A stretch of DNA of 64,000 nucleotides, from contig NZ_BCTO01000004.1 in NCBI RefSeq assembly GCF_001571325.1, positions 1 to 64,000 on the forward strand. Direction: 5' to 3'. Below are positions 7,006-19,410 of this stretch, piece after piece. This DNA comes from Delftia tsuruhatensis NBRC 16741. GTDB taxonomy: Bacteria; Pseudomonadota; Gammaproteobacteria; Burkholderiales; Burkholderiaceae_C. Numbering within the stretch: the first letter of the stretch is position 1; each line of letters starts with the position of its first letter. The notes beneath the pieces were generated by a model that had not been told where the DNA came from, did no database searches, and worked only from the letters and a program-made list of their open reading frames with translations. Position numbers and translations under genes: made by a program.

Positions 7006-7075
7006 GCTATTTTGCATGGAAAGCTTGTCGCGGCGAAGACATGCGGGGGAAAACACCTAGCTTGTGGGCTGGCGC

Positions 7076-7099
7076 AAAAAAGCCGGCAGGTGCCGGCTT
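7076..7099 (-). terminator. Rho-independent terminator of the tail operon
   Basis: On the minus strand a 9-bp stem (7080-7088 with 7091-7099, AAGCCGGCA/TGCCGGCTT) runs into a six-T tract. It lies 22 nt after the last tail-cassette gene and marks the left limit of the cassette. Confidence 0.8.
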
Positions 7100-7120
7100 G
7101 GTTTCATTGCTTGGGGCGGG

Positions 7121-7642
7121 TCAAGCCTCCACGACAAACATCTTGATACCCTTGAACCGCATGCGGCGTTCGGGTGGGAGGTCGGCGTTAATCATTGCTT
7201 CGGTCAGCTCCCATATGCGGCTGTCTTCAAACCGAATGGAGAACGTCATAGCCCCTTGAGCCAGCGTCATTCTCAAAACCCGCTCGCGGCCATCACGACT
7301 GCGGATAAGCGATCTAAAAGATTCATCACGCTTGAGCAACGAATCTTGACGATATAGCTCAGTATGGAACGTCACGGTTGCGCCGACGGGCACAGTGATA
7401 TCTGTAAGATCCGACGATGCCACAAATCCATTTTGCACATCTGATGCAATGCCTGTGACAACAAGTCGAGGCCACTCCATTGCACCAGCCAATGCAGAAA
7501 AATCATTTCCGTCCCAGTATTTTCCAAGTTCATGCTCGTCGTATGTTGGTCGGGCAATCATGTATGGCAAATCAACAATTTCTGAAGATTGCAACAGTGA
7601 TTTACCGATATTATCTGCATCAATCTGCATGTAATAAAACAT
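7121..7642 (-). CDS. Phage tail-associated protein, unknown function
   Basis: Last gene of the tail operon, 173 residues from the ATG at 7642, which has GAAAGGG 9 nt upstream; a TTG at 7660 overlapping the previous stop is an alternative. The N-terminal part (MIARPTYDEHELGKYWDG) resembles short proteins that follow phage tail fibres, while the C-terminal half has no recognised domain. The gene is clearly AT-richer than its neighbours, as is the next one, which suggests separate acquisition. It could be a fibre tip, a fibre chaperone or a receptor-related accessory. Function is not assigned. Confidence 0.6.
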   Translation of the reverse strand: MFYYMQIDADNIGKSLLQSSEIVDLPYMIARPTYDEHELGKYWDGNDFSALAGAMEWPRLVVTGIASDVQNGFVASSDLTDITVPVGATVTFHTELYRQDSLLKRDESFRSLIRSRDGRERVLRMTLAQGAMTFSIRFEDSRIWELTEAMINADLPPERRMRFKGIKMFVVEA

Positions 7643-7656
7643 CTTTGCATGCCCTT

Positions 7657-7938
7657 TCAATTGAATTCCACGACTTCCCAGGCGATAGCTGGCGCAAAGG
7701 TTGTTGTATTGGTAATAACATACGATTCGACCACAAGTGTTGTGGAGTTTAATATCCTCACACTGACCCTGGATTCATATTGAGGAAAGAAATGTGAAGT
7801 CAATATATTTACAAATGCCTTTGCAGGATTAACAGCAGAAATGGTGACATTAACTTGTGTGGAACCAGGAGATGTAGCACCACGCTGAACATTTTTAATC
7901 CCGCCACCACCCCCAAAAAGCTGAGAAAAATTCGGCAT
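7657..7938 (-). CDS. Small phage structural protein
   Basis: A 93-residue protein starting MPNFSQLFGGGGGIKNVQRG, a glycine-run opening seen in small tail proteins of several prophages. The rest alternates beta-type segments (VNVTISAVNP, VSVRILNSTTLVVESY), suggesting a small beta-sandwich virion part. Low GC like the following gene. It starts three bases after the fibre-like gene stop and its own stop overlaps the next possible TTG start, so it is translated in the same operon. Function is not established. Confidence 0.6.
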   Translation of the reverse strand: MPNFSQLFGGGGGIKNVQRGATSPGSTQVNVTISAVNPAKAFVNILTSHFFPQYESRVSVRILNSTTLVVESYVITNTTTFAPAIAWEVVEFN

Positions 7939-7941
7939 TTC

Positions 7942-8622
7942 TTACACCCATCCTTTCGCTGAGCCGGAATACACAAGCGAGCCGGCTGCCCGCAGAACAT
8001 CGAGAGTCATCACGCCGCTCGCTCCGCGAATGAGAGCGCCGTTGGGATGGATGGCCACGGCCATCGAATCGGACAGATCCGTGATCTGGACCACATCGCT
8101 CAGTGCGGGCGCTGCCGGCAAAGTGAGCGTGAGTGCCGCTTCGATCACGTAATGCATGCGTGTCTGCGCCAGCGTATCGGAGCTGATGCGCTGGATGGGG
8201 GCCGACATGGGCGCCCCCATCACCCACCAGTTGAAGGTATCGGAGCTGGGGTCATTGCCGCCGCTGCCGGCAAGCTTGCGGCGGTAGTTGAGGCCATTGG
8301 CCGGACTCCAGACCACGGCGCCCTCCGCATAGGCTGTACCCGCAGTCCATTTCACGGCACCAGCGGCTGCCGCAGCAGCTATGGCGCTTTGCGCGGCGGC
8401 GGCCTCGGACTGCGAGGCACCGCGCGCGGCGCCCTCCGCAGATCCGGCGCGTTCCTCCACATGCAAGGCGTTGGTATAGGTCGCATCGTTCGTGGCGTTG
8501 ATCTGCTGGCGATGCGATTCGAGCTGCCCCAGCAGGGCATCGGCATGCGCGTCGAAATCGGGATCTCCGACATAGGGAGCGACGGGAAGTTGTGCAATCA
8601 GAGGTGGTTTGACAATAGGCAT
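7942..8622 (-). CDS. Tail fibre-like protein with carbohydrate-binding motif
   Basis: 226 residues. Residues 1-60 form a helical N-terminal part, followed by an Ala-rich stretch (about 60-90) typical of trimeric fibre stalks. Next comes a motif of the form W-x(4)-AYAEGAVVW...NYRRKLAGSGG...FNWWVMG, like the W/Y-rich modules (chitin-binding type 3-like) on phage fibres. The C-terminal 70 residues are a beta-rich tail domain. Its ATG overlaps the stop of the upstream gene by a single base. Likely part of the receptor-binding end of the tail; target unknown. Confidence 0.65.
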   Translation of the reverse strand: MPIVKPPLIAQLPVAPYVGDPDFDAHADALLGQLESHRQQINATNDATYTNALHVEERAGSAEGAARGASQSEAAAAQSAIAAAAAAGAVKWTAGTAYAEGAVVWSPANGLNYRRKLAGSGGNDPSSDTFNWWVMGAPMSAPIQRISSDTLAQTRMHYVIEAALTLTLPAAPALSDVVQITDLSDSMAVAIHPNGALIRGASGVMTLDVLRAAGSLVYSGSAKGWV

Positions 8623-9539
8623 TACATGGACTCCAAATCAATATGGCTGTACGAGTCTTTCGCGTTGTTGAGGTCGATGGGAAAGCGCCGGTAAGGGCCG
8701 AAGATCGACGCGGCTTCGGCATATCCATCGGTGGTGTCGTCATCCAGTGCAGCCCACAATGCCGGGGCCGCATCCAGTTCCCTGCGCAGGCGCAGTGCGG
8801 TATCGACGTTGTCCTTGGGGATGCGGACCTTGACCGAGAGCGTGGGAACGCTACGCACAGGCTGCAACTTGATGCCGCCGTACTTGTCGCGATCGACCAC
8901 CGAGAAATTCAGCGCGTCATTGCGCGGCGCCCATTCCGCATCGCCAATCCAGCTCTTCATGCCTAGTGCCGCATGCTCCACACGCACCGGGCGGCCACCT
9001 GCACGCACCAGCGTGACCACGATTTCCGCTCCGGTGAATGGAGGCAGGTCCGATATCAGAACCGTGGGAATCAGCGGAAATTCGCCAAAGAAATAGCCTG
9101 ACCAGGTGCGCGTGGCGCGCGCGTTCAGCTTGCGTTCGCGTTGGGCAACGACGGCGCCCGCGGACTTGACCTGCATCACCACCTTGTCGGCCTGTACCCC
9201 CCGCATGAACAGGGTGTCGAAGCGCTTGCCTGGGCGCAGGGTGAAGCTCAACGTCGCAGGGGCTTCGGTGGCATCGTTCGTGAGATGGCGGAACATGGCC
9301 CAGCGATTGCTGGGACGCAGGGGCATCCAGCGCCTGGCGTCCTGTTCGGGAGGCGTCGCATCGACTCCCGCAATGCTGTTCTCATAGCGCATCTGCGTCT
9401 CCAGCCGCAGAACCTGCGCGCCACGTTCATAGTGGGTTGTTGGCGACCACAGTTTCTCGCCTGCAGAGGCGTCCACTTCCGGAACACTGCAGTCGATCAG
9501 GCCAGCCGCCGTGATAGGCATGGGGGGGACAACTATCAT
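8622..9539 (-). CDS. Phage tail protein, carbohydrate-binding-like (tip/baseplate candidate)
   Basis: 305 residues from the ATG at 9539, which has GAGG 5 nt upstream; the frame is open further upstream but that part overlaps the collagen-like gene in another frame. The N-terminal part has EKLWSPTTHYERGAQVLRL followed by ARRWMPLRPSNRWAMF, the same W/Y-rich module type as in the fibre-like gene. The remainder is predicted beta-rich with FTGAEIVVTLV and a C-terminal segment rich in charged residues. No lambda L, K, I or J signature is present. It lies where tail-tip genes are expected, so a tip role is plausible but inferred. Confidence 0.6.
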   Translation of the reverse strand: MIVVPPMPITAAGLIDCSVPEVDASAGEKLWSPTTHYERGAQVLRLETQMRYENSIAGVDATPPEQDARRWMPLRPSNRWAMFRHLTNDATEAPATLSFTLRPGKRFDTLFMRGVQADKVVMQVKSAGAVVAQRERKLNARATRTWSGYFFGEFPLIPTVLISDLPPFTGAEIVVTLVRAGGRPVRVEHAALGMKSWIGDAEWAPRNDALNFSVVDRDKYGGIKLQPVRSVPTLSVKVRIPKDNVDTALRLRRELDAAPALWAALDDDTTDGYAEAASIFGPYRRFPIDLNNAKDSYSHIDLESM

Positions 9540-9546
9540 GGTTTCC

Positions 9547-10254
9547 TCAAACGATGTTCCACCAGATGTTGGTGCCGTCCTTCCAGACGCACACCAGCCG
9601 AAAGCCACCCACGGCCACGTCGCAGACGAGATGGCTGTCGTGGCCATGGATGTAGGTGCCCGACTCCTGCCGGGCAACGGTGAACTGCGCGGACGCAGGC
9701 CAGGTGAGGTGAAGATTCGTGAACTCGACGAAATCGCCGAGCGCAACCTCGCTCTTCTTGGGCAGATGCATGGTGATCGCGCCGCCACCCGTCCAGATGG
9801 CATAGCGCCCCCCGAGCTGAAGCACGCCACCATTGGCCTCGCGCAGATAGCCGGCTCTCGCCAGTTCGCGACCCCACGCCAGGGTTGGAATGGCCACCGG
9901 GCCCTGGGGTCCGGGAACGCCGGCATCCCCCTTGGCACCAGGCGTGCCCGGTAGACCCTGGGGTCCTGTTGCTCCCTGCGGCCCCTGCAGTCCCTGAGCA
10001 CCCACATCCCCCTTGGGCCCGGCAGGTCCCTGAAGTCCTTGCTGCCCCTGCAGGCCTTGCACGCCGGCCTCGCCTTGAGGACCTGTCGCCCCACGCGGAC
10101 CTGTTGCTCCCGCAGCGCCCGGATCACCCTTCGGTCCCTGCGGGCCGGCGATGGCCGCCGCAGCGATGGCATACGTGCGGCCCGTCCGGCGCAGCAGTGT
10201 CAGGTCGCCCGGCATCAACGATGCCGCTTGCTCGAGTTGATCGATCGTTGGCAT
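9547..10254 (-). CDS. Phage tail protein with collagen-like repeats
   Basis: 235 residues from the ATG at 10254, which overlaps the tape-measure stop as ATGA. Residues 1-36 are a short helical head, residues 37-120 are 28 uninterrupted Gly-X-Y triplets (GPQ, GPK, GDP and so on), and residues 121-235 form a globular C-terminal domain. Collagen triplets in phage virion proteins form trimeric rigid fibres, so this is probably a side or tip fibre with a C-terminal receptor-binding or trimerising head. The triplet region makes the locus prone to length change. Confidence 0.8.
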
Positions 10255-13200
10255 CAGAGCTCCAATACGGCGCTGCCGCCAGCCGATTGCATGGCCACGC
10301 CGCCACGCGTTACACGCAACAGCACCTCGGCCGTATCGCGCACATGCTGTTTGATGTCCTGCAAGGCAGGATCCTGCTGTTCGATAGCGCGAATCAGGCG
10401 CTCGATGGCCAAAAGCAAGGGAGTGCCAGCAGCATCCGCGCCACCGATCAGCGCCTGTCCCAGTTGGCTCTGGTTCCAAAGGCGCGCGGGTCCGGTGGCT
10501 TCGATCTCCCAACCACTTTCACCCACCATGCGCAAGCCACCACCGTGCAGGCCACCTTTCGCGAAGGCCGGAATGCCAGCGCCTTCGAACCACCTGCGCC
10601 AATCGGATTCATAAAGACCGGAAAGCTCCGCCAGATCTGCGGCGGTCAGCTTGTTGTCCTTGATCCATTGGTTCAGTCCGCTGGCGTCCCCGGTTCCGTC
10701 GAAGGCGTGATAGCCATCGTTGTACTTGTCCAGATGCGCTAAACGATCCTTGTCGGTGACTGGCTCATACCAGGTGCCACCCGAACCATCCGTGCGTGCC
10801 CGGCGGTAACGCGCATCCTGGCCCGCTCCAGGCGAAGGCGCCCCCCCAGGCCCCAGTACGGCCACATCGCCTCCCCCAGGGCCGGACTTTCCGCCGCTCT
10901 TCTCCGCCAGCAGCTTTGCCTGGAAATCACGCACCGCTTCATCGACGCTGCGCACGCTGGTGTCTATGCCACGAGCCGCGTCCAGTTGCTGCTTGGCGGA
11001 AAGGATCAATTCATCCAACCGAGCCAAGGAAGTCTCTTCGGCCGCCAATTGCTGTTCGGCCACTGACAACTGCTCCTGCCCCTTTTCACCGAGCTGTTCC
11101 AGATCTGCGGCCAGCGCTCGCCTTGCCCGCTCCTCATCGATACGACTGGTGTAGGCCGTGCGTGAAAGGCCATCGCGCGCCGCAGTGATGGCTTCGTCGA
11201 GTGCTTTTTGCTCTGGCAGGTAGCCGGTATTGCGGACAGCCGAGACTGCATCCTGGATGAACCGTCCGGCCAACGATGCATCCATTGCGGCAACCGTATC
11301 GACCTCACCCCAGAGATCACGTGCGGCACCGCGCGCCAGGTCCACCACACCACGTGCAAGCTCGACCTGCTCGCGGGCGGCATCCAGACGCGCCTGCGCC
11401 AGGGTGCGCTCCGCATCGACAGAACGCTGCAGCAGGCTCCACGCCGCATCCGTATCGGCCTCGTTCTTCTTCCTCGCCTCCTGCGCCTGCTCCTCCTGCT
11501 TGCGCTTGGCTTCCTCCGCCTGTTTGGCCGAAGCCGCCGCAGCATCCTCGGATGTCTTGGTAACGGCCTTGAACGTGTCGTTGAGCTTGAGCAGCTCGGC
11601 AGCAGTCTCGGCCGAAGATTTGCCGGTGCCGCCGATATTGCCGATCAGCTTGTCCATACCGGCAGTGAAGTCGGCCAGCGACGTGCTGGTGTTCGCCAGG
11701 TTCTCGAGATCGGCCGCGAGTTTTCCGATATCGCCAGAACCTTCTTCCAGGGTGGTGCTGGCCCAGTCCTTGAAGGCGCCAGTCTTGGCCATGTCCTTGA
11801 GGCCTTGCGTGCCCTGGACCTTGGAGATGGCGTCCTTCAATACCTTGGCATTCGCCTCCTCGGAGTTGGCTGCCTTGAGCTTGTCCTCCACCAGCGTGCG
11901 GAACCGGGCCGGGGCGTCATCGGCGTCCAGGTCGATGTCCACGCCCAGGTCCTTGAGCTTGCTGCCCATCTCGCGCTTGGCGATGGTCTTGCGCTCATCC
12001 TCGCTGTAGAAGTTCTGGTAGAAGCTGCCCGCGTTGGCATTCAGCGCCTCGATGCCGCCCGAGGCCTTGATCAGGGACTCGAAGGCCAGGTCGGTAAGGT
12101 CGGCAAAGCCCGTGATCTTCTTGCCCAGTTCCTCGAAGGAGCGGCCGATCAGGTCGATGGTCTGGAAGGCTGCCTGCAGAGCCTCGACATTGGGTGCTTC
12201 GCCCAGCGAGTCCAGCGTGGTGCGCATCCAGCTGGGCAGGTCCGCCTTCTTGAGTTCGGACACCAGCAGGGAACCGGTCTGGCCCAGGAAGGCCTTGTAG
12301 GCCTCTTCCGGGTTGTTGCCCAGCGAGCGGTTCTCGAAGCCGGCCAGGATCATGCCGGTCGTCTTGTCGATGATCTTGGCGTAGCCGTAGGCGTCCTCGT
12401 CGGTGTACTTTCCGTTGGCGGCAAAGCCGCCCACCAAGTCGATGTCGCGCACTCCGCCCGTGGCGTACTTGCCCAGGGATCCGTAGACCAGGGCCAGTCC
12501 GTCCAGACTGGTCTTGAGCTGCTTTTCGATGCCATCGCTGTGGCGGCGTGTCAGATCGTCGTACCAGTCGCCTGCCGCGCGGCCGAACAGCTGCTCGGCG
12601 GCCTTGTCGTTGCCGACGCCAGCGGTGCTGTAGGCGGCACCGGCGTGGTTGGGGCCGCGGGAGCCGAAGGACCCCGCAATGGAAAACAGTGCCATGGCCC
12701 CCGCCACCCATGGCAGGGCCGCGCCCAACATCGTCCCCAAACCCGCAGCGGTGGATCCTGCGGCGCCGGACCCGAGCAGCGTCATCCCTTGGCCCATGGC
12801 TCCACCGAAGAGGCCCAGATGCCCGCCAGCGGCGATACCTGAGCCGAATGCGGTGGCCGCCGAACTCCCGAACATTGCCCCCATGGTGGCAAAGCCGTTG
12901 CCCACTGCACCCGTGAGTCCACCGGAGAATGCGGACCAGAGGGATTGGCCCGAAGACAACAGGGCCGCTTCGCCGCCACCTGCTGCACCAGCACCACCCG
13001 GCATCTTGAATAAGTTGCCGATCATGCCTTGTATGGAGGCGATCACCGGCACGACGAACGGCTGTGCAAATGCCTTGTACATCTCGTCGGCCACCGTGGC
13101 CTTGAACGTCGCGCTCAGGTTCTTGGTGAACGTGCGCCAGCCTTCCGTACCGTTGGCCAGCATGTCTGCGAAGCCCTTGCGGAACATCTCGTCCATCTGG

Positions 13201-15197
13201 TCAACGGACTTCTGGGTTTCCTGCATGCGGGTGCGCTCGGCGACATTGGCCTTGGCCTGGTTCGCAGCGGCCGTGGCGTCTTCCTTGAGCTTCTGGGCGG
13301 CAGCGGCATCCGAGGGATTCTTGGCCGCGATGTCCTGCAGCTTTTTCTGGAGATCTATCTCGATCCTGTACTGCGCCAGGGCGATCTCCCGATCGCGCTG
13401 CGACATGGCGGCCAGGGACTGCTCGAACTGGGTCGCCTCGTTGGCCTCCTTCACGCTTTGCGCGTACTCGGCCACCATGCGTGCCGAGTCGTTATAGCCT
13501 TTGACCCTGGCGAGTTCGCGCGTGGCATCGGCCTCTTTGCCCACGGCCTCGGCGACGTCCTTCGAGCATCGGACGCTCTCTTGCTTGGCTGCGTTGTCTT
13601 GCAGTTCCGCGATGGTCTTTTCGACCTGCTCCTGCCGCAGCTGTCCCAACGCATCGCCAGTCAGACCGATCGCGAGGGTCTCCTGCCGGGCGAGTTCCAG
13701 GTTCTTTTCGGCCAGTCCGGCCTTGGTCTGGTGCTCCTTGACGAGCTGCGCCACCTCCTGCTGCCTTTTCTGCAGTTCCTGATCGCGCTTGATCTCCTCA
13801 TCGTCCTGCTGCGTTCTGGCTGGCGCGGCCGGTGGTGCGTAGCTGACGATGCGGGGCACTGCAGGCTTCTCTTTCCTCTGCGCAGGCGCATCGGTTTTCT
13901 TGCTTTGCTCCTGCGGCTGTGGCTGTCCCACCAGCGGCGGATTGATGAACCCGCGGCCGCCGCCTGCATTGCGCTGACCCTGTGCCGCCATCAATTCGCG
14001 CTGCACCTGCTGCAATTTTTCGACCAGGCGCTGGGCATCGTCATGGGCCGTGCGCACCCATACATTGCGCGATGTCGCTGCCCCCTTGGCCTGCAGCATC
14101 TCCAGTTCAGCCCTGGCGCGCGGAAGCTCCTTGGCCAGATAGGCTGCCTTTTCCGCATTCGACTGGAAGGCCGTGCTGATGTATTGCAAGCCCACCGCGC
14201 GCCCGGCGATGTTGCCCAGGCCGCTGCTGATCTGGCCCAGGAAGCCCGACCCGTTGTCACGCGCCCGCGACATGGACTCCGAAAAGGCGTTCATATCGTT
14301 GGCCGCTGCATTCATGCCAAAGGAGATCATCTGGCTGATGCCGGAATCTCCCACGGCGGACTTGAGCTTGTCCCAGGCGTTGGCCATGCGTTGGGTGCCG
14401 GCATCCAGCCTGTCCGCCGCCTTGTCCGTCCCCTCTCCCAGGGAGCTTTGCAGCGCCTGCGAGAAACGGGGCAGAAAGTCCTGCGTCACGACCTCGCCGG
14501 TCTGCAGCATCTGGGAGAACCGCTCCTGTGTCACACCCAGGGCCTGAGCGCCGACCAGCGCCGCCTCCGGGATATGTCCCAGTTTCTCGCTGAAGTCCGA
14601 CGCGCCTATCGTCCCCTTGCCCATCAGGTCGAGTACGGCTGCCAACGAGGCATTGCCCTGCTCCACGGAAAGGCCCATGGCCGCGTTGGCCGAGGCAATC
14701 CCCGTGAAGATGGTCTGCACCTGCGCGCCCTCCAGCGCCGTACCTCGCGCCTTGGTGGCGAAGTCGGCGTAGGCCTGGCCGGTGGCATTGAGCTGCAGGC
14801 CCAGCCGATCGGCCAGGGCCGTGACATAGGCCAGTTCCTGCGCGCCCTTGCCGCCGGTGGCAAGGTCCAGCCGTGTACGCAGATTCTCTGTCTGGGCACT
14901 GGCCGTGTAGAGCGCCTCTCCCACCTTGGCCGCCGAACCCGCAACTTCCAGCATGGCATTGGCGCGGCCTGCAATCTTGCCCATGGAAGTAGACAGGCTC
15001 TCGATATCGACGCTGGCACGCGCCGACACAAGCGCCGTGTCCGTTGAGGCACCTGCGAACTGCGACATGCCGGCATACGCCTGCTGCAGCTTGCCGTGGA
15101 GTTTGTCGAGCTCCTGGGAGAACTGGGCATTCTGCGCACGCAGCTCGCTCAGGCTGGGCGTCTCGGCGATGCCTATGCTTTTGACCGCTGTACTCAT
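10254..15197 (-). CDS. Phage tail tape measure protein
   Basis: 1647 residues. The N-terminal 250 residues match the lambda-type tape-measure N-terminal domain ([39 protein letters not shown]). A long Lys/Glu/Gln-rich coiled-coil zone follows (about 400-670), then a Gly/Ala-rich hydrophobic stretch (about 690-860) typical of the membrane-active part, further coiled coil (about 1290-1500), and a compact C-terminus. Known rule of about 0.15 nm per residue gives a tail near 240-250 nm, a long siphophage-like tube. Located just after the G/GT chaperone pair, the standard order. Confidence 0.92.
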
Positions 15198-15267
15198 GCT
15201 GATCTCTGTTCGGTATGCTTGACCGCTTGTGTTTGTCTTGAAAGGCCGGAGCCGAGGCCCCTATGCC

Positions 15268-15645
15268 TCAGCCCCGGTTGAGCTGGCGCAGCGCCTGCGC
15301 CTCCAGTACCTGCAATTGCGCGAAGACCTCGCCGCGCTGCGCGGCGGGCACCGCGTAGCGGCGCATCACGATCTCGACCCCGGCGTAATCCAGCCCGTCC
15401 CAGTGCCACTGGCCCCAGGGCGTGGCCGTCCTGCGCCACTGGGTGGAGCAGCCGAGGTACACGCTCCAGGCCATCGCATGCTCCGGCCACAGTTCGTAGT
15501 CCTCGGGGTGCTGCCGTTGCAGATCGCCGGGCACCATCCGGTCGGGGTCGATCCCCATCTGCGCGCACTGGGCGCGCAGCTCGTCGTCTACGAGATAGCG
15601 GTCTGCGCCGTCGAGGCCGAGGTGATGCCGGACAGCGCCACGGAG
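15268..15645 (-). CDS. Tail chaperone T extension (DUF1799-like), expressed by -1 frameshift
   Basis: Open frame in the -1 register relative to the upstream chaperone gene, giving 125 residues after the slip. It has no convincing start of its own; the first ATG is at 15558 (MGIDPDRMVPGD) without a good ribosome site. Its C-terminal half (YELWPEHAMAWSVYLGC, WHWDGLDYAGVEIVMRR) matches the DUF1799 pattern found next to phage tape measures. In lambda the equivalent T part is made only as a G-T fusion. Fusion here would be 258 residues. Confidence 0.75.
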   Translation of the reverse strand, partial: LRGAVRHHLGLDGADRYLVDDELRAQCAQMGIDPDRMVPGDLQRQHPEDYELWPEHAMAWSVYLGCSTQWRRTATPWGQWHWDGLDYAGVEIVMRRYAVPAAQRGEVFAQLQVLEAQALRQLNRG

Positions 15646-16043
15646 TTTTTTGTGGCGGCATCCCGCTGGTGCACGTTGAGTCCGTCGAACCAGGCCACGG
15701 CCATGGCCTGCTCCAGTCCCGGGTAGGCCTCCTCGGCCGCCAGGCGTTCGTCGCGGCTGTAGGGCACGGGTGTTCCTTCGTCGCCCAGCATCCCCTCCCA
15801 GCCCACAACCACTTCGTCGAGCAGTTCAGGGATGGTCATGCGCCGTACCTCCTGCGAGCCATCGGGCTGCGTGGCGGGCTTGCCGACGACGATGAGTTCA
15901 TTGATCTCGTCGCGCCGCGCCTTGCCCAGGCGCTTGAACACGACGGCAAAGTGATGGGCTCCGAACCTGCCCTCATCGACGGGCAGGTACAGCGTTGCGG
16001 GAACGGAGATGGTGGGCTTGAGCCCGGAAATCTTGACGGCCAT
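15588..16043 (-). CDS. Phage tail assembly chaperone (gpG-like)
   Basis: 151 residues, starting MAVKISGLKPTISVPATLYL. It sits between the tail tube gene and the tape measure, the fixed place of the tail chaperone that keeps the tape measure soluble during tube assembly. Codons 131-133 contain the slippery heptamer A AAA AAC followed by a possible stem-loop, so a fraction of ribosomes should shift by -1 and produce the longer GT protein. Normal termination occurs 18 codons after the slip site. Confidence 0.8.
   Translation of the reverse strand: MAVKISGLKPTISVPATLYLPVDEGRFGAHHFAVVFKRLGKARRDEINELIVVGKPATQPDGSQEVRRMTIPELLDEVVVGWEGMLGDEGTPVPYSRDERLAAEEAYPGLEQAMAVAWFDGLNVHQRDAATKNSVALSGITSASTAQTAIS
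15605..15651 (-). other. Programmed -1 ribosomal frameshift signal
   Basis: Minus-strand heptamer AAAAAAC (15645-15651) in zero-frame phase A AAA AAC, a 6-nt spacer, then an 8-bp stem GCGCTGTC/GACGGCGC with one G-U pair (15631-15638 with 15605-15612) and an 18-nt loop. Joining the frames here fuses the gpG-like chaperone to the DUF1799-like extension. Confidence 0.75.
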
Positions 16044-16086
16044 GGTGATCCTTGGATGTGTAGTTGTCAGGCAGGGAGGTGAGGCG

Positions 16087-17013
16087 TCAGATCTCGATGG
16101 ACCATTCGTCGTTGCCCGCGTCGGAGGGAATGAACGACAGGGGGATCGTGATCATCTGCACGCCATCGCTGTCGCTGTAGGTCGGCTTGCCGATCTGGGC
16201 GCGCGCGCTCTTGAAACTGACGGTGTTGGTGGCGCCGGGGCCATGCTTGAGCGTGACGGGCACGATGGCGCTGGCGCGCGCCAGGCCGATCCAGTCCTTG
16301 GTGGCCACGCTGGTGTTCTCGAAGGTGACGCTGCCCGTGGACTTTCGGTCCGTGATTTCCACGGTGTCCACGTTCATCAGGTCGCGCTTGACCACCTGGT
16401 TGCCGCACTTGAAGCTGAAGGCGCTGCAGGCCACCGCCAGGCCGTCGAGGGTCAGTTGGGTGTTGGTCTTGTTGACGCCCAGGGGAGCGACGAAGTCGCT
16501 GTAGTCCACTGCCGGCAGGGCCTCATCCACGGCGGGGACGAAGGAGCCCGTGAACTCGAACTTCCACTTGGGAATGGCCTTGGCATCGGTGCTGAACTCC
16601 ACCTCGCCGCGTGCGCCATGCATCTTGTAGAGGGTGCCGTCCACGTTGCCGTAGATGGTCACGCTCTGGATGCCGTCGGTCACGGGAGAGAAGACTGTCT
16701 TCACGCCAGTCTCGGTGCTGGCGCTGGCGGCACACGCACGCAACAGGTCGGTCACACCGGGACGCTCGCCCGCTGCGGCCACACCCGCGAATTCCACGGA
16801 GAACGCCACCTTCTGGTATTCGGTGACCAGGGTGCTGCCGCTGGAGCCGAAGAAGGGACGGATGTTGTTGCGCTCGACCACGTCGCCCTCGATGGGGGTG
16901 AGGGTCACGTCGCTGACCAGCATGGCATTGGCCGCCAGCGGTACGACGGCCGTGCCGACAACGGTTTCAACCAGGGCCAGGAGGGCCATCTTGCGCATGA
17001 TCTTTGCTGCCAT
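16087..17013 (-). CDS. Phage major tail tube protein
   Basis: 308 residues from the ATG at 17013, preceded by AAAGGA at 9 nt; a longer open frame upstream overlaps the terminator-like gene in a different frame and was not used. The sequence is beta-rich with LTPIEGDVVERNNIRPFFG near the start and VTFENTSVATKDWIGLARAS toward the end, as in tail tube proteins of siphophages that stack hexameric rings. The N-terminal hydrophobic segment (about 8-30) looks like a signal peptide but is probably part of the fold. Position before the G/GT chaperones supports the call. Confidence 0.8.
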   Translation of the reverse strand: MAAKIMRKMALLALVETVVGTAVVPLAANAMLVSDVTLTPIEGDVVERNNIRPFFGSSGSTLVTEYQKVAFSVEFAGVAAAGERPGVTDLLRACAASASTETGVKTVFSPVTDGIQSVTIYGNVDGTLYKMHGARGEVEFSTDAKAIPKWKFEFTGSFVPAVDEALPAVDYSDFVAPLGVNKTNTQLTLDGLAVACSAFSFKCGNQVVKRDLMNVDTVEITDRKSTGSVTFENTSVATKDWIGLARASAIVPVTLKHGPGATNTVSFKSARAQIGKPTYSDSDGVQMITIPLSFIPSDAGNDEWSIEI

Positions 17014-17143
17014 TTGGAAAATCCTTTGAAGAGATGAGGAAAGGTTTCGCGGCCTTGGGCGCCGTTCTCCAGCGCCGCGGACCACAGGGGTTGCGGGAAA
17101 GTTGCGAGGTGTCCGGTCTAGGCCCGGTTCGGTGGTGTGCAGG

Positions 17144-17629
17144 TCACAGGTAGCTCCAGGTTCTGAGTTGCAGGACAACGGAGTGGCAACGCACTCCCGC
17201 GAAATCCACCGGCTCGGCACGCATGACCTGCACGCCATCGGTGCTGTCGTCGCTGCCTGCCAGGGGACCGGGCTGGCACACGCCACCCAGGGTCGGATCG
17301 GCTCGCACCAGGGCGCGGAACTGCTCGACCAGGTCGTCCAGCAGCAACTCGCTGGCCTGGGCGTCGGCGATGGCCAGGTAGCCATGCAGCGTCCATTGGT
17401 GCACGCTTACCGTGCGGGCCGTGCTGCTGCCGTGCTCGACCGTGCTGCTTCTGCGCAGCCACCAGCCGCGGACATGGGCCGTGCCTGCTGCAGGCGGCGT
17501 ATACGTGAACAGGGCGGCCAGCTCGGCATCGCTGGCGGCATGGCGTTCGCGGTCCTGCACAACGCCGATCTGCGGCACCGAGGCCAGGACGGACACGATG
17601 GCGTTGCGATGCTGGGCCAGTGCATTCAT
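17144..17629 (-). CDS. Tail terminator/completion-like protein
   Basis: 161 residues from the ATG at 17629, which overlaps the stop of a preceding 35-codon frame as ATGA. Pattern RNAIVSVLASVP at the start, LDDLVEQFRALVRADPTLGG in the middle and HSVVLQLRTWSYL at the end fits small alpha/beta proteins that cap siphophage tails (lambda gpU-like place). It lies immediately before the tail tube gene. The identification rests on gene order and general fold pattern, not on a diagnostic motif. Confidence 0.6.
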   Translation of the reverse strand: MNALAQHRNAIVSVLASVPQIGVVQDRERHAASDAELAALFTYTPPAAGTAHVRGWWLRRSSTVEHGSSTARTVSVHQWTLHGYLAIADAQASELLLDDLVEQFRALVRADPTLGGVCQPGPLAGSDDSTDGVQVMRAEPVDFAGVRCHSVVLQLRTWSYL

Positions 17630-17733
17630 GGGCGCAGCACCGGAAAGGCCGCTGCCACGCTCGCCGCAGCCTCGGCCACGATGGGCCGCAGATGAGCGGC
17701 AAAGAGCAGGAACAGTTGTGCGATGGCGTACAT
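17626..17733 (-). CDS. 35-residue leader or small membrane-type protein at head of tail operon
   Basis: Short frame starting MYAIAQLFLLFAAHLRP with an Ala-rich amphipathic second half. It has the best ribosome site in the cassette (GGAG, 6 nt before ATG) and its stop overlaps the next gene's start as ATGA, the arrangement of real translational coupling. It may be a leader that sets tail-gene translation, a tiny membrane protein, or the surviving end of a deleted head-joining gene. Its ribosome site can be covered by an upstream hairpin. Confidence 0.5.
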   Translation of the reverse strand: MYAIAQLFLLFAAHLRPIVAEAAASVAAAFPVLRP

Positions 17734-17735
17734 GG

Positions 17736-17786
17736 GTCACTCCGTTGGGGGACGCAGAAAAAGATGCGTCGTTGCGATGGAGTGAC
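17736..17786 (-). promoter_or_regulatory. Nested hairpin covering the first ribosome site of the tail operon
   Basis: On the minus strand GTCACTCC (17779-17786) is an exact complement of GGAGTGAC (17736-17743), which includes the GGAG ribosome site. Inside it GACGCA/TGCGTC (17765-17770 with 17751-17756) forms a second stem with an 8-base loop rich in T. Folding would hide the ribosome site. Confidence 0.55.
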
Positions 17787-18070
17787 TGTGCCGAGGCAGG
17801 CAAAAATGAATAAGGCCTGCATATGCAGGCCCGGTTTCAGCGTCCACAGGCGCGCGCCTTCTCAGGCGCAGCGGACCTGGATGCCAGGCACATGTGCCTT
17901 GGCCCGGCACATCCCAACGGCCAGGCAAGCGCAAACGTCCTGCCGCTCCGGCAGGCACGGATGCACGAAAGAGGAGGACGAGAAAGGCTGGGAGAAGACG
18001 GAAGCGCGCAGGCTGGCCTCAGGCCTGCGGCAAAGTCTCTGGAGCGATGCCGGGCGGCGCGGCCCGGGGG
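17787..18070. other. Gene-free leader region between repressor and tail operon
   Basis: About 280 bases without a credible gene. It holds a terminator (17800-17831), a perfect 14-bp palindrome AGGCACATGTGCCT at 17886-17899 and a 7-bp hairpin CCTGCCG-CTC-CGGCAGG at 17939-17955. No clear -35/-10 pair for the tail operon was found, so its promoter may depend on an activator or lie further upstream. Confidence 0.5.
17800..17831 (-). terminator. Terminator after the repressor gene
   Basis: Minus-strand stem GGCCTGCA-TA-TGCAGGCC (17814-17831, a perfect 18-bp palindrome) followed by TTATTCATTTTTG. It separates repressor transcription from the tail operon that lies in the same direction. Confidence 0.7.
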
Positions 18071-18745
18071 CTAGAGTTCTCCGCCGTGCCAGAGGACCCG
18101 GCCGCAGATGCGCAGCCGGTTGGCCGCTTCGCCTTCCAGAACCTGGGGCGGATAGGCGGGGTTGTAGCTGACGATGCGCACACCGCCCGTGCTGAAGTCG
18201 CGCTCCAGCAGCTTGACGTAGTTCTCACCCTCCAGCTCGATCACATAGACACCATCCTGGGTCAGCGTATCGACCGAGGTGTTGACCAGCAGGATGTCGC
18301 CGTCGTTGATGCGGTCCGCCATGGATCTTCCACGGGCACGCACGATCTTGGCGTTGTGCCTGCCCAGTCCCTTGGACTGCAGCCAGGACGAACGGAAGGC
18401 GAAGCGGCCTATCACCTCGTCGGGGCCATTGACGGCCCCATGCCCTGCGCTGACGTGCGCATCGAGCATCTCGATCTGTGTGAACTCGTCTTCGGCCGCC
18501 CCACCATGCCGAGCGACAGGCTTCGCCGCGCCCGTGCCGTTGAAATACTCCAGCGGCCGGCCCGCTCGCTGCGAGGCCCGCAGCAGTTGCCGTGCTGGCA
18601 CTTCCCCGCGCTTGCGCCATGTCCGCACCGTTTCAGGCTGAACCTCCATGCCGGCCATCCAGTCGGGTCCCAAGGCTTCAGCCATGCGCGCCAGTACCTC
18701 ATCAACGTTGGATGTAAGCGCATCAGTCACAGGTTTTGCAGGCAT
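18071..18745 (-). CDS. S24-family phage repressor (CI/LexA-like)
   Basis: 224 residues from the ATG at 18745; an earlier in-frame ATG at 18778 overlaps the first operator and was not used. The N-terminal 70 residues are a phage CI-type helix-turn-helix (PETVRTWRKRGEVPARQLL). The C-terminal half is a peptidase S24 domain: probable Ala-Gly cleavage site in HVSAGHG, catalytic Ser in RARGRSMADRI and catalytic Lys in ENYVKLLERD. Family members self-cleave when RecA is activated, so DNA damage would relieve repression. The gene has its own terminator ahead of the tail operon. Confidence 0.88.
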   Translation of the reverse strand: MPAKPVTDALTSNVDEVLARMAEALGPDWMAGMEVQPETVRTWRKRGEVPARQLLRASQRAGRPLEYFNGTGAAKPVARHGGAAEDEFTQIEMLDAHVSAGHGAVNGPDEVIGRFAFRSSWLQSKGLGRHNAKIVRARGRSMADRINDGDILLVNTSVDTLTQDGVYVIELEGENYVKLLERDFSTGGVRIVSYNPAYPPQVLEGEAANRLRICGRVLWHGGEL

Positions 18746-18753
18746 GGCGAATC

Positions 18754-18782
18754 TTGACAGTGGTTCGTTATGGACCAAGAAT
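18754..18782 (+). promoter_or_regulatory. Promoter of the Mor-like activator gene
   Basis: Consensus -35 TTGACA at 18754-18759, 17-nt spacer, and a weaker -10 AAGAAT at 18777-18782. Operator 1 fills the spacer, so bound repressor would block it. Confidence 0.5.
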
Positions 18783-18815
18783 ATGGTTCAAATTGAACCG
18801 TTTCCTTTTGAACCA
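18761..18815. promoter_or_regulatory. Three repressor operators between the divergent regulators
   Basis: Three 17-bp sites of form TGGTTC-N5-GAACCA: 18761-18777 (one mismatch), 18784-18800 (last base differs, contains the palindrome GGTTCAAATTGAACC) and 18799-18815 (left arm with two mismatches). Centres are 23 and 15 bp apart. The trio resembles the three-operator design of lambda and sits between the repressor and activator starts. Confidence 0.7.
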
Positions 18816-18831
18816 AGAGCGTACAGCCAAA

Positions 18832-19344
18832 ATGCATTCCGAACACCATCCGGCATCTGTCTTCCAGGGCTTTCGGCCTGCTGCCCTGCCCCCCACCATC
18901 GGCATACCCACGCCCGGAGCAGCTGCCATTGACCCGCGCCATGGCACTTGCAGTGATCTGCTCCCGCCCCTGCTGCAGGACTTCGAGCGCCTGATCGGAC
19001 TGCAGCCCACGATGGCCTTGGTGCAGCGCTGGGGTGGGCTGCGCATCTACGTTCCCACGCCGGACAAGGTCACACCCGAGCATCCCTATGCGGCCACCAT
19101 AGGCGTGAAAGCCTTGCTCCAGCTCGCCCGTGAGTATGGAGGCCTGCCCCACTTCCAGCTGCCCAGGGCAGCGCGCGCACTGCAGGCACTACGCAACCAG
19201 CGTATCGCCGCAGACTACGCCACGGACAAGACGGCCCGGCAACTGGCTGCCGAGCATGGGATTACGGAAGGCCAGGTGGGGCGCATCGTTGCGGCGCTGG
19301 GCGTGACAGCACCGGCCAGGCGACGGCGCAATCTTGCCGGCTGA
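18832..19344 (+). CDS. Mor-family transcription activator
   Basis: 170 residues from the ATG at 18832. The C-terminal half has the Mor/Mu-C family layout: a dimerisation part (IGVKALLQLAREYGGL, FQLPRAARALQALRN) and the HTH RIAADYATDKTARQLAAEHG followed by ITEGQVGRIVAALG. Mor proteins activate middle promoters of Mu-like phages. Here it is divergent from the S24 repressor and the three operators separate the two genes. It is the natural candidate for switching on the tail operon, though its target is not shown by the sequence. Confidence 0.8.
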   Translation: MHSEHHPASVFQGFRPAALPPTIGIPTPGAAAIDPRHGTCSDLLPPLLQDFERLIGLQPTMALVQRWGGLRIYVPTPDKVTPEHPYAATIGVKALLQLAREYGGLPHFQLPRAARALQALRNQRIAADYATDKTARQLAAEHGITEGQVGRIVAALGVTAPARRRRNLAG

Positions 19345-19376
19345 GCACTGCCACCGCGAAGAAGCAAGGCCCTGGT

Positions 19377-19410
19377 CGCAAAAAAGCCACCGGCGCAAGC
19401 GGGTGGCTTT
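19377..19410 (-). terminator. Terminator of slmA, right limit of the tail cassette
   Basis: Stem AAAGCCACC/GGTGGCTTT (19383-19391 with 19402-19410). The T tract is on the minus strand, which suits slmA ending at 19447. It may also stop the convergent Mor-like gene, but with only three T residues on that side. Confidence 0.75.

Follow-up and report, generated by a model that had tools for sequence, protein, structure and literature searches.

The 64,000-nt stretch of contig C4 of the Delftia tsuruhatensis NBRC 16741 genome (G000, 6.6 Mb) analysed here, hereafter the window, contains a headless siphophage-tail island of ~12 kb (positions 7062–19381) lying between two chromosomal TetR-type genes, one of them SlmA-like. 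A preliminary description of the window had placed the island at 7076–19410; the island is there, but its edges were moved to about 7062–19381 by comparison with the empty site of genome G002, in which the aligned flanks (L135) leave the SlmA-like TetR and TetR genes only 190 bp apart. No clear target-site duplication was found at the island ends. A minus-strand tail operon lies downstream of an S24 repressor gene, from which the gene for a Mor-family activator diverges. The operon runs in the order tail terminator-like protein, tube, G, DUF1799, tape measure, collagen-like protein, phrog_6278 tip, F4, F3 and F2, and the genes named in the preliminary description (terminator-like, tube, G/GT chaperone, tape measure, collagen-like, fibres, repressor and Mor) all lie at roughly the positions given there. 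Percent identities given below for relatives of island proteins are to those of the window.

Tail genes and control region of the island

The tail terminator-like protein (17144–17629, minus strand, as are all genes of the operon) has no significant family match (best phrog_4204, E 0.087), and is assigned by its position and by its homologues in head-bearing phages. It is followed by the tail tube (16087–17013; PF18906, 3e-10; phrog_290, 8e-24), the G tail assembly chaperone (15588–16043; phrog_569, 2e-6, and position) and the T part of the G/GT chaperone, a DUF1799 protein (15268–15558; PF08809, 6e-27). A slippery heptamer, A AAA AAC, at 15645–15651 would give a fusion of 258 amino acids by −1 frameshifting; because this heptamer occurs in phase near the end of G in all 16 loci examined (10 islands and 6 relatives, predicted fusions of 246–272 amino acids), joining of G to the DUF1799 frame in this way is supported by the comparison. 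The tape measure (10254–15197; 1647 amino acids; PF20155, 9e-20; TMP_3) is mosaic, and is followed by a collagen-like fibre protein (9547–10254; PF01391, 2e-15).

The next gene encodes a tail-tip protein of family phrog_6278 (8622–9539; E 4e-44), for which a jelly roll like those of F5/8C and CBM32 domains is predicted. Its structure model (pLDDT 83, pTM 0.77) matches one viral protein over the whole length (TM 0.82), and part of it resembles F5/8C and CBM32-like jelly rolls (best E 4.5e-4), with TM values of only 0.2–0.3 by query and at most 0.6 by single-domain target. A phrog_6278 protein also lies downstream of the tape measure in head-bearing relatives and in the isolated phages DMCA and CGphi29, and a tail plan lacking recognisable lambda tip genes is therefore already in use among isolated phages, although RcapMu has a J-like tip. 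The preliminary description had counted the lack of recognisable lambda M, L, K, I and J genes against a tailocin or domesticated tail; no lambda-type tip gene was recognised here either. Three further genes complete the operon: the fibre-like F4 (7942–8622; weak phrog_31104 and phrog_6278 matches; 30–99% relatives in most other islands), the putative adhesin F3 (7657–7938), with a constant N-terminal MPNFSQLFGGG and an exchanged body, and F2 (7121–7642; phrog_31598, 2e-6; 60–64% relatives in L047, L050 and L051), perhaps an accessory protein or fibre chaperone, which seems dispensable. The operon closes with a terminator-like hairpin (7080–7099, minus strand), whose minus-strand reading ends in a T run.

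Genes for a head, packaging, transposition or lysis were not recognised in family scans of the island's named open reading frames (ORFs), nor did any of 14 reference proteins from the transposition, lysis, packaging and head blocks match at E 1e-3 in the 11 island copies (window, L002, L004 and L046–L053); the capsid, portal, terminase, integrase, replication and lysis genes that the preliminary description had listed as not seen were likewise not recognised by these two approaches. MuA and MuB transposition genes went unmatched in the 11 islands, and MuA had no match in five of five genomes (G000, G001, G002, G052 and G033) in a search run without a positive control. A search with the capsid family PF05065 hit 3 of 19 genomes or records (G000, G001 and G462), never at the island, and was uninformative, head-bearing Mu-like records being unmatched too; tblastn, with terminase and portal queries taken from L110 and from phage Aval, was used in its place. 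A hydrophobic 63-amino-acid ORF overlapping other genes at 7809–8000 had no Pfam match. Elsewhere in the genomes, a lysozyme relative was found once in G000 (C40) and not in G001, G002 or G052.

The S24 repressor (18071–18745, minus strand; S24 match 8e-20) probably starts at the ATG at 18745, although scans and residue numbering used the start at 18757. Ser145 and Lys182 (scan numbering), which together with an A-G dipeptide we take to be the S24 catalytic and cleavage residues, are invariant in six of six aligned repressors, and self-cleavage is likely. A search of the PDB with the repressor sequence returned nothing at 0.001. Between repressor and Mor, where three operators had been proposed, we found three 15-bp operator-like sites (18762–18814, at 18800–18814, 18785–18799 and 18762–18776), kept in eight of eight islands and present with substitutions in the three Mu-like phages inspected. 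A sigma-70-like plus-strand promoter match (18754–18782; 10/12) directed towards Mor overlaps these sites; the promoter scan count was close to that of shuffles (3 vs 2.4), and the match is thus a weak indication. The Mor-family transcription activator itself (18832–19344, plus strand; PF08765, 4e-9; phrog_836, 4e-23) is 74–76% identical to Mor of the L110-group phages introduced below. Inspection by eye of 27 stretches upstream of leaders gave no firm Mor box for the tail operon.

The tail operon is preceded by a structured leader RNA of 106 nt (17731–17836, minus strand) with three hairpins in order, the first terminator-like and the third covering the ribosome site. It resembles the late-operon leaders of Mu-like phages, sharing an unchanged 20-base core with three phage records (L112/L148, L147 and L150), and leaders were present in the window, L112, L113, L123, L130, L133, L134, L147, L151 and L166. 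Its folding beat 200 of 200 shuffles (z −5.3; −2.8 to −5.2 for three phage leaders), and across 14 sequences the three-hairpin model left 95.7% of cells paired vs 90.6% in shuffles. In this alignment five pairs had changed on both sides, and none of 500 shuffles reached the covariation score; further pair types were no commoner than in shuffles (187/500). Helix 3 showed no two-sided change there, an A-U to G-C change being seen by eye in L134, which is misaligned at this point. Up to three copies of the leader occur in one phage, by position upstream of the lysis, head and tape-measure parts; the leader model matched 12 of 399 family genomes, including G000, and Rfam had nothing at the leader in three sources. 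Both the leader core pattern and the model occur once in G000, and a second operon there providing lysis in trans under the same leader was accordingly discarded. A 35-amino-acid leader ORF (17626–17733, minus strand) overlaps the tail terminator start (ATGA); the idea that it encodes a very small holin was dropped, as it is not conserved in L004.

Variation among island copies and occupancy of the site

The repressor, Mor, tail terminator and DUF1799 genes are full length in 11 of 11 copies, and the tube and G genes in 10 of 11. Frameshifts across strains, which the preliminary description had proposed to look for, were absent from the core genes of every copy but L004, and the tape measure is open (1574–1671 amino acids) in all ten copies that could be scored, L046 being excluded as its contig ends inside the gene. 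Selection on the tail genes was found to be purifying and strongest in the tube, with pooled pN/pS values (L004 omitted) of 0.017 for the tube, 0.029 for the repressor, 0.112 for DUF1799, 0.120 for G, 0.210 for the terminator, 0.243 for Mor and 0.484 for the tape measure.

The C-terminal part of the tape measure (alignment columns from 1300) is 97–100% identical to that of the window in L002 and L053 and 74–89% in L004, while in six of the nine compared copies columns 1300–1700 fall to 25–60%, with 0% in the last columns. In the same six copies identity is only 23–32% for phrog_6278 and 30–43% for F4 (partial in L049). The middle block of the tape measure (columns 700–900) is 40–54% identical in all nine, and the N-terminal part differs too in L049 and L051 (19–75%). 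The tape-measure C-terminus, tip and adhesin vary as one cassette, as the specificity parts of tailocins do. The nine adhesins (L046 and L048 are cut before this gene) fell into four classes by BLAST, the short N-terminus being kept within a class and the body exchanged; in L053, with tube, terminator and G all 100% identical to those of the window, the adhesin shares only 10 residues (273 vs 93 amino acids). Family searches with the adhesins tested turned up two hits only, a marginal one to BNR_3 in Pfam for L052 (E 0.009) and a weak one in PHROGs for L049. The adhesin would be the part that binds a receptor.

In G000, in G001 (L002; Delftia acidovorans NBRC 14950) and in G033 (L004 = L143) the island occupies the same place, flanked by the same pair of genes, and L046 retains one of the flanks. 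Head or integrase genes, suggested earlier as something to look for in same-site copies, were not found in L002 or L004/L143. At the same site G052 holds 2.8 kb and G032 (L137:5800–17700) ~11.9 kb of unrelated cargo, first in which is an Xre/RES toxin–antitoxin-like pair (identified by eye); because of this cargo the site may be an exchange hotspot.

Flank dS values place G001 nearer to G002 than to G000 for HK (0.12 vs 0.18) and the SlmA-like TetR gene (0.06 vs 0.13) and at equal distance for the other TetR gene (0.09 each), yet of these three genomes only G002 is without the island. Between G000 and G033, which is more distant than G001 and G002, dS was 0.26–0.75 in the island (highest in Mor and the repressor) vs 0.25–0.54 in the flanks. 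The similar dS of island and flanks in this distant copy suggests an old vertical presence with loss in G002, a signal that recombination of flanks or regulators could blur. Two side observations concern these genomes and this site. A contractile sheath family (PF04984) was found in two of five genomes, the island-less G002 and G052; G000, G001 and the incomplete G033 gave no match, and the numbers are too few to judge. In G349, of another genus, relatives of the same two TetR-type genes flank a leader-like match (L212:13454–13554; 38 bits); the interval gave no tail-gene match, and the leader-like stretch is possibly a relic of a lost island.

Relationship to Mu-like transposable siphophages

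Scans of viral contigs gave 27, 14 and 24 loci, in which eight short contigs (L046–L053; 6.6–14 kb) were the same island and the large records carried Mu-like phages. The best single relative was L166 (G439; repressor 73%, MuA 65%, terminator 65%, tube 57%, G 56% and DUF1799 56%), which also bears terminase and portal. The L110/L112/L113 group shares the repressor (67–68%), Mor (74–76%), terminator (45–47%) and operators, and matches neither the tube nor the chaperones nor the tape measure of the island. The Paracidovorax valerianellae prophage L151/L152 shares the tube (83%), terminator (67%) and Mor (62%), with no match to its repressor. The closest relatives of the island's parts therefore sit in different Mu-like phages; mosaicism of this kind is usual among phages. 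The late leader is common to L166, the L110 group and L151/L152. Among isolated phages, the named relatives were RcapMu and RcWaterboi (tubes 35–36%) and, for the repressor, the c repressors of MP29- and JBD26-type Pseudomonas phages (32–34%).

Unlike the island, L166, the L110 group and L151/L152 all have MuA, terminase and portal matches. Gene families in L110 included the Mu transposase C-terminal domain, a MuB-like AAA protein, DUF3164 (a protein first labelled Gam by eye proved to be this one), lysozyme, an Rz-like spanin, Mor and S24, together with a terminase (phrog_38, 9e-123) and a portal (phrog_10963, 8e-61); families confirmed a transposase and portal in L152 and a terminase and portal in L166. 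Terminase and portal were matched in eight of eight non-island records with a tail-terminator match, one of which (G463) supplied the queries for both. In these relatives the transposition block separates the repressor from Mor, and the stretch from repressor to tail holds the genes for lysis, packaging and the head. The features of the Mu-like lineage that remain in the island are the repressor, Mor activator, late leader and tail, and in gene content it looks like a Mu-like siphophage from which the transposition block and the lysis, packaging and head block have been removed.

Tailocin, other domesticated tail or remnant

The island is very probably a domesticated Mu-like siphophage tail, and the likely form of it is a working flexible (F-type) tailocin. 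As in F-type tailocins generally, tail genes stand without head, packaging or replication genes, the core is intact and under purifying selection, and the end of the tail is variable. Three findings speak for a working tail rather than a prophage in decay, and for the tailocin or domesticated-tail interpretation already put forward in the preliminary description: purifying selection, variation of the tip cassette, and divergence that roughly keeps pace with the flanks.

With the parts of the island, their origin, conservation, selection and tip variation in hand from sequence comparison, induction, the target of Mor, assembly, killing and release would proceed as follows. The S24 repressor would occupy the three operators and keep the divergent Mor gene silent until DNA damage led to RecA-stimulated self-cleavage of the repressor. 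Mor would then be made and activate the late promoter region, and the old phage leader followed by the tail genes would be transcribed. Tail length follows a rule of ~0.15 nm per tape-measure residue, and the G/GT frameshift and tape measure would yield a tail of ~250 nm, ending in the phrog_6278 tip, fibres and strain-variable adhesin. Such a tail would bind and kill related strains bearing the receptor, after release by lysis genes elsewhere in the genome, by an unrecognised lysis gene or by a non-lytic route.

Several observations weigh against a working tailocin. Lysis genes would be expected in the locus, and, as the preliminary description had cautioned, limited queries picked out no holin, endolysin or spanin in the island, holins not having been searched systematically. 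G002 and G052 do not carry the island. In the metagenome-assembled G033 (L004; L143:6386–7416) the copy has a truncated tube and lacks G, through real decay or misassembly, and F2 is only a fragment in L002 (G001) and unmatched in L004 (G033). The A-G dipeptide occurs in five of six aligned repressors and is missing in L159, and the promoter-like motif preceding the leaders of head-bearing phages was not recognisable by eye upstream of the island leader. Finally, in L160 (1–1476) the distal island end adjoins an IPTL-CTERM gene (PF18203) instead of the TetR gene. Searches for the IPTL-CTERM gene gave no more than weak, partial hits in G000 and G001 and nothing in G002 or G052. L160 speaks against one fixed site.

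The lack of a recognised lysis cassette would also suit a tail domesticated for a role other than killing, for example in adhesion, in excluding phages or in providing tails for phages or satellites that enter the cell, as would the 49–52% relatives of the tip genes in phage contig L056. Divergent adhesin classes on a constant tail fit an exchange of target range as in known tailocins, and we hold a non-killing role to be rather unlikely. Chance survival of a decayed prophage, the main rival in the preliminary description, could account for the lack of recognised lysis and head genes, for the damage in G001 and G033 and for the absences in G002 and G052. Against it stand the intact core ORFs in 10 of 11 copies, the strong purifying selection on tube and repressor, the conserved slippery site, the open tape measures of all ten uncut copies and the rough co-divergence with the flanks, and a decayed remnant is unlikely. 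A mobile satellite or phage fragment recently moved between strains is highly improbable: IMG/VR records copies as viral contigs and the distal neighbour differs in L160, but no transposase or integrase was recognised in the block, MuA is unmatched in the five genomes (search without a positive control), three copies with both flanks and L046 with one share the site, island dS is roughly like that of the flanks, and none of 50,697 phage or 72,556 plasmid records matched the island DNA at megablast sensitivity.

Known flexible tailocins offer the closest comparison for the favoured tailocin interpretation. The F-type pyocins of Pseudomonas aeruginosa have a repressor/activator pair, PrtR/PrtN. 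Like them, the island has a headless non-contractile tail gene set, a repressor/activator pair and a variable, putatively receptor-binding end; it differs in its Mu-like instead of lambda-like origin, its S24 repressor and Mor, its TMP_3 tape measure and phrog_6278 tip with no recognised lambda-type tip genes, and its lack of a recognised lysis cassette. Family scans found in it neither the lambda-related tip genes nor the PrtN/PrtR control of the F-type pyocin family proper. The transposable Rhodobacter siphophages RcapMu and RcWaterboi share with the island, besides the tube, DUF1799 (about 30–32%) and a similar tape-measure C-terminal stretch, and a −1 frameshift as proposed here is annotated in RcapMu; they differ in having head, packaging and lysis genes and, downstream of the tape measure, a large tip protein, and RcapMu has a tip protein that is J-like. 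BceTMilo of Burkholderia cenocepacia, a tailocin of the same order, likewise has a CI-like repressor, and its induction is RecA-dependent; it is unlike the island in being contractile and P2-like, with a holin, spanins and an integrase gene (PMC5411513). Pseudomonas F-type tailocins relate to lambda, and tailocins have probably arisen many times and are released by lysis (PMC12090994).

Among the matches listed in open-licence literature there was no flexible tailocin of Mu-like origin, or in Delftia, and one of Mu-like origin is apparently previously unreported. That the island represents a flexible tailocin lineage derived from a transposable (Mu-like) phage, the first of its kind, in which two blocks were lost, a c-repressor/Mor pair replaces PrtR/PrtN, an undescribed structured leader covers the ribosome site and release makes do without a lysis cassette in the locus, we regard as an evenly balanced proposition. 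If so, transposable phages would join P2-like and lambda-like ones as sources of tail weapons. For Delftia it would mean a candidate antibacterial particle of strain-level specificity, for which nature already supplies four or more classes of adhesin. The natural series from head-bearing prophage through headless island to empty site makes the steps of domestication readable, and the lack of recognised lysis genes poses directly the question of how tails exit the cell.

Of 20 other tube-bearing regions (L162–L181), seven match a reference terminase, portal or capsid and 13 match none; headless status is not claimed for the latter, as divergent heads or cut contigs may explain them. A second prophage in the genome of the window (G000:C38; L144 and L145) carries a 38–40% relative of the tube together with Phage_capsid and portal/terminase matches.

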